62,602 nucleotides of DNA from Alphaproteobacteria bacterium (GTDB lineage Bacteria; Pseudomonadota; Alphaproteobacteria; MPNO01; VGEU01), in assembly GCA_016869145.1 (NCBI GenBank), contig VGEU01000007.1:1-62602 (forward strand), given 5' to 3'. The notes below the pieces were generated by a model, which was not told the DNA's origin, searched no databases, and worked only from the letters and a program-made list of their open reading frames with translations. This document shows, piece after piece, positions 40,045-40,454 of the stretch. Within the stretch, counting starts at the first letter, position 1. Each line of letters starts with the position of its first letter. Both the position numbers and the translations under genes were made by a program.

Positions 40045-40203
40045 CGGGTTCCACTCGCGCCATGGTGGTTGCGGGGCGCATTCGGCCACACGACCGGGCC
40101 GCGCGGAAGTCTCGATCGCGCCCTGTCGGAATTTTTTACACCCGACCGCAAGCGGCCTGCGACACAACCCTTCAACTATTTGATCAACAAAATGATTCTG
40201 GCA
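40045..40203. other. Upstream region of sigma-54 promoter, AT-rich
   Basis: Gene-free stretch between the divergent enoyl-CoA hydratase start and the sigma-54 promoter. Positions 40130-40200 are strikingly AT-rich for this genome, with a run of six T and the palindrome TTGATCAA (40180-40187) flanked by ATTT and CAAAAT. This composition is what one expects of an IHF-bent or activator-binding region upstream of a -24/-12 promoter. No specific enhancer-binding-protein site such as an NtrC or NifA site is recognised. Confidence 0.4.
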
Positions 40204-40219
40204 TGGCACGAGGCTTGCA
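40204..40219 (+). promoter_or_regulatory. Sigma-54 (-24/-12) promoter
   Basis: TGGCACGAGGCTTGCA at 40204-40219 matches the sigma-54 consensus TGGCACG-N4-TTGCA at every conserved position, with the correct GG-to-GC spacing. It points along the plus strand, and the next ORF, a 53-residue membrane peptide with a good ribosome site, starts 73 bp downstream. The gene would be silent until an AAA+ enhancer-binding protein activates RpoN polymerase; no such activator is in the window. Confidence 0.75.
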
Positions 40220-40292
40220 TTCATCGTTCACGAAACGGGGCCGCACCGGGATTCGCTCGCCGGGCGCGCGCCCGACGGCACGGGAGGCGACA

Positions 40293-40454
40293 ATGGCGAC
40301 GGTAAGCACCAGGGGCGCACAGCGTGTGGTCCGCAACATGGCGATCCGGCGCCATTCGCGCCGCGTCGCGATCCTCGGCGCGATCGTCGTCGGCACCGCG
40401 CTGTGGGCGTTCGCGATGCTGAGCCTCGCCGGCTACGAGTTCAAGGCGCTCTAG
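40293..40454 (+). CDS. Small membrane peptide (53 aa) behind a sigma-54 promoter
   Basis: A 53-residue ORF beginning MATVSTRGAQRVVRN. It has a basic, Arg-rich N-terminus (residues 7-24) and then one hydrophobic helix AILGAIVVGTALWAFAML (about 26-43), ending SLAGYEFKAL. The positive-inside rule predicts a cytoplasmic N-terminus. ATG 40293 has GGGAGG (40282-40287) with ideal spacing. No family is recognised. It is the first ORF after a near-perfect sigma-54 promoter, which strongly suggests it is a real, regulated gene. An enoyl-CoA hydratase gene follows in the same direction 150 bp later and may share the transcript. Confidence 0.65.
   Translation: MATVSTRGAQRVVRNMAIRRHSRRVAILGAIVVGTALWAFAMLSLAGYEFKAL

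Follow-up and report, generated by a model that had tools for sequence, protein, structure and literature searches.

The window that we analyzed, 62,602 nucleotides of contig VGEU01000007.1 from an alphaproteobacterium, contains a small gene (40293..40454, plus strand) for a 53-aa peptide. Judging from the open reading frame, its composition, and its orthologues, this peptide has a basic N-terminal tail (residues ~1-24), one transmembrane helix (residues ~25-45), and a short C-terminal tail. Positions of third codon bases are rich in G and C (GC3 = 0.92), and AlphaFold2, run on the single sequence, gives one helix that spans residues 6-52 (mean pLDDT 84), which supports helicity rather than a fold. 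By the positive-inside rule, the predicted topology is N-in/C-out. A Shine-Dalgarno sequence, GGGAGG (40282..40287, plus strand), lies 5 nt ahead of the ATG at 40293. A sequence-only reading of this DNA was right to describe a single-helix membrane peptide of 53 residues with an ideal ribosome binding site. It was also right that no known family fits: searches of Pfam and NCBIfam with the peptide found no match even at E = 10. In particular, neither TIGR02595 nor PF07589 matched the peptide, and it does not have the layout of a PEP-CTERM protein (a signal peptide, and a C-terminal PEP motif followed by a helix and a basic tail), as its basic tail is N-terminal. Rfam gave no credible match at the locus, and an Rfam element was rejected.

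Two genes upstream of the peptide are relevant below. The nearer one is a divergent enoyl-CoA hydratase/isomerase gene (PF00378; 39262..40044, minus strand), which the sequence-only reading overlooked. Beyond it is thiE, for thiamine-phosphate synthase (PF02581; 38649..39275, plus strand). The gene downstream of the peptide also encodes an enoyl-CoA hydratase (PF00378).

The peptide gene is preceded by an exact -24/-12 site for sigma54 (RpoN), TGGCACGAGGCTTGCA (40204..40219, plus strand), which reads TGGCACG-AGGC-TTGCA. The exact pattern TGGCAC-N5-TTGC has a single occurrence in the window, at 40204-40219, and rpoN is encoded in the same genome. Taken alone, the -24/-12 site is weak to moderate evidence, because across the genome the pattern has 15 sites, as compared to 5 for a reversed control. 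(An exact sigma54 promoter is also found immediately 5' of a gene for a PII or GlnB-like protein, on contig C55 of this genome (L037), which separately indicates that RpoN is active in the organism.) Transcription would be expected to start at about 40230. The -12 element is 74 nt from the ATG, and the start of the -24 element is 89 nt from it. No patterns for a sigma70 promoter or a terminator were found around the peptide gene. Given the other elements that accompany the site, as described below, the exact match that was first noticed from the sequence is borne out as a genuine RpoN-type promoter.

We aligned all of the exact TGGCAC-N5-TTGC promoters that we retrieved from genomes of the order. 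The alignment exposed a second element, TGTCGG-N5-TTTACA, 60-65 bases 5' of the sigma54 site. In the window, this enhancer-like element is TGTCGGAATTTTTTACA (40124..40140, plus strand); it lies just outside the stretch that the sequence-only reading considered and was overlooked there. Haft et al. (2006, PMC1569441) described a 17-nt "motif 1" that ends in TTTACA and is found before the sigma54 site of PEP-CTERM genes, and they predicted that PrsR binds it. In their data, the distance from motif 1 to the sigma54 site averages 62.8 nt (SD 10.6, range 32-92), and the distance from the promoter to the start codon averages 71 nt (PMC1569441). In the window, the gap between motif 1 and motif 2 (the sigma54 site) is 62-64 nt, depending on which edge of motif 2 is chosen, so both this spacing and the 74 nt to the ATG agree with the published values. 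TGTCGGAATTTTTTACA corresponds to their motif 1 and is a candidate site for a PrsR-type activator of the PEP-CTERM regulon. As the published logo is given as a figure, this match rests on the description in the text (the TTTACA end, the 17-nt length, and the spacing) and on the genes that lie downstream.

The composite pattern, with motif 1 followed by motif 2, matches the window once and never matches any of 100 shuffles, which puts it well outside the expectation from chance. Across the order, we found about 100 distinct composite sites, spread over 11 of the 27 genomes; the genome of the window has 7. A further 11 genomes, which belong to other families in the class, have composite sites too. 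The reversed pattern, as a control, had no matches throughout (385 genomes). The genes that follow composite sites mostly encode secreted proteins with PEP-CTERM tails. In the source genome itself, two genes at composite sites on contig C78 pass the Pfam cut-off for PEP-CTERM, and one of them also passes the TIGR02595 cut-off. The sequence-only reading had suggested a role for the peptide in nitrogen or carbon stress, but the enhancer motif is the element of the PEP-CTERM regulon and is common to dozens of genes for PEP-CTERM surface proteins. There is no clear indication that the peptide gene serves in nitrogen or carbon stress.

Contig C78 carries three tandem genes for related secreted proteins (L179: 2319-3065, 3192-3929, and 4064-4759, minus strand). 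Two of these proteins match HpiC1-like and PEP-CTERM models, and the third is without a detected PEP-CTERM tail (NCBIfam only). A different type of sigma54 promoter is found in several genomes of the order before a gene for an orthologous-looking GGDEF-like protein (L031, on contig C4 of the source genome, and L127, L152, L170, and L173); these promoters have another upstream element, which resembles GGCAATATTTGCCYAATTGGCAA.

Between motif 1 and the sigma54 site lies a third element. At 40173..40185 (plus strand) is CAACTATTTGATC, which has one mismatch to the IHF consensus YAANNNNTTGATW (scored as YAAN4TTGATW) and ends 18 nt before the -24 element, a spacing that is shared by most of the 121 composite promoters. 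An AT-rich, IHF-like region with a palindrome had been noticed here from the letters alone, and the palindrome is present as well (TTGATCAA at 40180-40187, inside the AT-rich stretch). Matches to the consensus with 0-1 mismatches are found in 71 of the 121 composite spacers, as compared to about 6 expected, and they end 18-19 nt from the -24 element in nearly every case. (A further example is at about 1312-1324 of L002.) We also considered CAAN4TTG as an NtrX-like site, and dropped this idea because CAAN4TTG is the IHF-consensus box, at a fixed spacing across the promoter class. An enhancer, then an IHF site, then the sigma54 promoter is the classical layout for sigma54 promoters. The IHF-like box is a conserved third part of the PEP-CTERM-type composite promoters and is absent from the 2006 description, as neither "IHF" nor "integration host factor" occurs in the text of that paper (PMC1569441). 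The same IHF consensus has been applied at other sigma54 promoters, such as that of hcp in the Vibrio T6SS2 (PMC5963220). The hcp promoter is like the one in the window in that it has the IHF consensus at a fixed spacing 5' of the -24/-12 site, but it has another enhancer motif and belongs to another regulon.

One genome of our set, G022, has composite sites (for example, L256, L257, L261, and L263) in which the usual IHF-like box gives way to another conserved spacer, approximately CTTAACCAYTGTCATCGGCYT...TTAACCCGGT. These second-class promoters often precede genes without an obvious PEP-CTERM tail.

The peptide had been called an orphan, which it is not: it has look-alikes, discussed below, and syntenic orthologues in two relatives. 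In both relatives, the peptide and the promoter have been kept together, which was the conservation check that the sequence-only reading had named. The first orthologue (L002:1435-1596) is in the public MAG Dino_bin58 (G013), which represents another family of the same order. It has 53 amino acids, is 36% identical to the peptide from the window, and lies directly after thiE (in the window, thiE is one gene away). It has a composite promoter, and its ATG is 90 nt from the start of the -24 element, as compared to 89 nt in the window. The second orthologue (L325:1370-1534, in G006) is from a third family, has 54 amino acids, and also has a composite promoter. It adjoins the same divergent enoyl-CoA hydratase gene, in the same order, and the two hydratases are 50% identical. 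When the G006 peptide was used as the query, the peptides from the window and from G013 scored 11.8 and 11.1 bits, above all 222 transmembrane decoys (the best of which scored 7.4); this is the only HMM query for which the decoys are unbiased, because some of the decoys were fetched as matches to two of the peptides. Also, in all three pairwise comparisons of the orthologues, the annotated frame gave the top-scoring frame pair. When the peptide sequence was searched by itself against relatives, the class, and 84,980 species genomes, only the match in G013 rose above noise, and the flanks of thiE in the remaining genomes of the order contained no additional pair of sigma54 promoter and peptide.

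The enoyl-CoA hydratase that had been pointed out downstream of the peptide is indeed there. However, we rejected it as a conserved partner, because the downstream gene is different in G013 and in G006. As for the thiamine genes, thiE is a neighbor of these peptides in three genomes, one of which is not from the order, and a gene for an enzyme that uses TPP is near two other peptides. These thiamine-linked cases are too few for a claim.

Small membrane peptides also follow other composite promoters. We looked for ORFs of 33-80 codons that begin with an ATG within 130 nt and whose products have a net positive charge at the N-terminus and a hydrophobic helix toward the C-terminus. Such ORFs follow 9 of the 119 testable composite sites (a count that includes the window as its seed, with criteria that were fixed after the first examples were known), as compared to 0.7% of random positions and 0.3% of Markov-shuffled sequences. 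Beyond the orthologues, six composite promoters precede small single-helix peptides (predicted to be N-in), or about ten times the random rate. Two of these peptides, one in G013 and one in G022, are syntenic: each is encoded with a TPP-enzyme/DUF1499 region on one side and a dehydratase gene on the other. In G014 (contig C291, L327: 1757-2400), two small membrane peptides are encoded in tandem, each with a complete composite promoter of its own, and the pair is flanked by a PsuG-like and a MazG-like gene. Another peptide, in a genome from another family, adjoins thiE. Outside of the three orthologues, the sequence similarity among the set is weak, at the level of noise, and we therefore limit our claim to a shared architecture and regulon rather than common descent.

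If motif 1 is the binding site of PrsR, then PrsR should be the activator of the peptide gene. We found no PrsR above the cut-off in the source assembly, and no exosortase was detected there either (the assembly is estimated to be 99% complete but is fragmented, with 247 contigs). The only full sigma54 activators that we found in this genome are NtrC and NtrX, whose genes flank ntrY on contig C100. It could be that one of them activates the promoter and that the product is a membrane peptide for nitrogen or redox stress. This seems unlikely because the upstream element is motif 1, which is common to PEP-CTERM genes in this genome and in relatives that encode PrsR, and because the orthologue in G013 has the same element in a genome with both PrsR and exosortase. 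Furthermore, the genes for PrsR and exosortase are within ~10 kb of each other in G013 and in G010, so a single gap in the assembly could hide both of them. Relatives with many composite sites likewise have no detectable exosortase; these include G007, which is a single-contig genome and has a broken reading frame for PrsR. In the source species, control by NtrC or NtrX or a decaying regulon is possible.

The other explanations concern the product. The transcript is short and apparently monocistronic, and no gene is evident after several of the composite sites, as would be expected if the functional product were a small regulatory RNA or a leader and the ORF were incidental. But it is the amino-acid frame that is best conserved (in 3/3 pairwise comparisons), the ORF has a Shine-Dalgarno sequence and high GC3, and Rfam has no credible match, so we think that an RNA product is quite improbable. 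The small size of the peptide, its single helix, and the tandem pair in G014 might instead suggest a hydrophobic membrane-toxic peptide, similar to a type I toxin, under the control of RpoN. Yet every copy retains the enhancer-IHF-sigma54 promoter that is common to secreted structural proteins, and we did not identify an antisense RNA, which makes a toxin very unlikely. Last, as PEP-CTERM genes are the usual targets of composite promoters, the promoter could be the remnant of a lost PEP-CTERM gene, with a small ORF after it by chance. It would be extremely surprising for a remnant to be kept together with the same peptide in three families, with two shared neighbor genes, and composite sites are followed by ORFs of this kind about ten times as often as random positions are.

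Overall, the peptide gene is probably real and probably belongs to a PEP-CTERM/exopolysaccharide regulon of the RpoN-PrsR type. In our model, the locus would be a single-gene transcription unit of this regulon. A PrsR-type enhancer-binding protein would bind motif 1 (40124-40140), IHF would bend the DNA at 40173-40185, and sigma54 RNA polymerase would open the -24/-12 promoter (40204-40219). A short mRNA from about 40230 would then be translated, beginning at 40293, to give the 53-aa peptide. The peptide would be inserted in the inner membrane so that the Arg-rich tail faces the cytoplasm and the C-terminus is on the outer side.

This arrangement is like the PEP-CTERM/exosortase regulon with PrsK/PrsR (PMC1569441) in both of its cis motifs, in their spacing, in the distance to the start codon, and in being an intergenic single-gene unit; also, PEP-CTERM genes with the same promoter are present in the source genome. 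It is unlike that regulon in that the product is a predicted N-in membrane peptide of 53 amino acids with neither a signal peptide nor a PEP-CTERM tail, in that the source assembly yielded neither PrsR nor exosortase, and in that a conserved IHF-like box lies between the motifs. Another of the closest known systems is pepA of Aquincola tertiaricarbonis, which is RpoN-dependent (PMC9850573).

The role of the peptide is more speculative. Because hardly any of the peptide would reach the periplasm and its cytoplasmic tail is basic, the helix and the tail must carry the function, and binding to a larger membrane protein is the simplest way in which they could do so. The helix might act on such a protein, either as its adaptor or as its regulator, with the partner being one that is made or needed during the production of exopolysaccharide and PEP-CTERM proteins; we offer this membrane role within the PEP-CTERM/exopolysaccharide program as a tentative proposal. 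The closest known working model is MgrB, which is a membrane peptide of 47 amino acids that belongs to the PhoP regulon and inhibits PhoQ (PMC2789325), with PrsK as the speculative analog of PhoQ. MgrB is similar to our peptide in size (47 vs. 53 amino acids), in having a single helix, and in that its transcription is linked to the regulon of a two-component system. The differences are that the peptide in the window is predicted to be sigma54-dependent and that some species have several divergent copies per genome, and we do not claim any relationship in sequence. That the peptide acts by feedback on the sensor kinase PrsK, in the way of MgrB, is speculative and, we think, doubtful. Because there are several divergent copies per genome, not every copy can be the same feedback inhibitor. 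More broadly, it is conceivable, if far from certain, that the single-helix peptides regulated by PrsR and RpoN form an undescribed family of small regulators or adaptors in the membrane that evolves quickly. This family would be a functional arm of the PEP-CTERM/exopolysaccharide program, for example by feedback on PrsK or by controlling exosortase or the exopolysaccharide machine.

The control of PEP-CTERM genes by PrsK/PrsR and RpoN underlies flocculation and the biofilm matrix in many environmental bacteria, and the regulon has so far been described chiefly as secreted PEP-CTERM proteins. If our proposal is true, then tiny membrane peptides under this control, which gene finders overlook, would count among the regulators or machine parts that have been missing from view. 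The conserved combination of enhancer, IHF-like box, and promoter is a precise signature with which to find more members, and it makes the question of what else PrsR targets directly testable in floc-forming bacteria that can be cultured.
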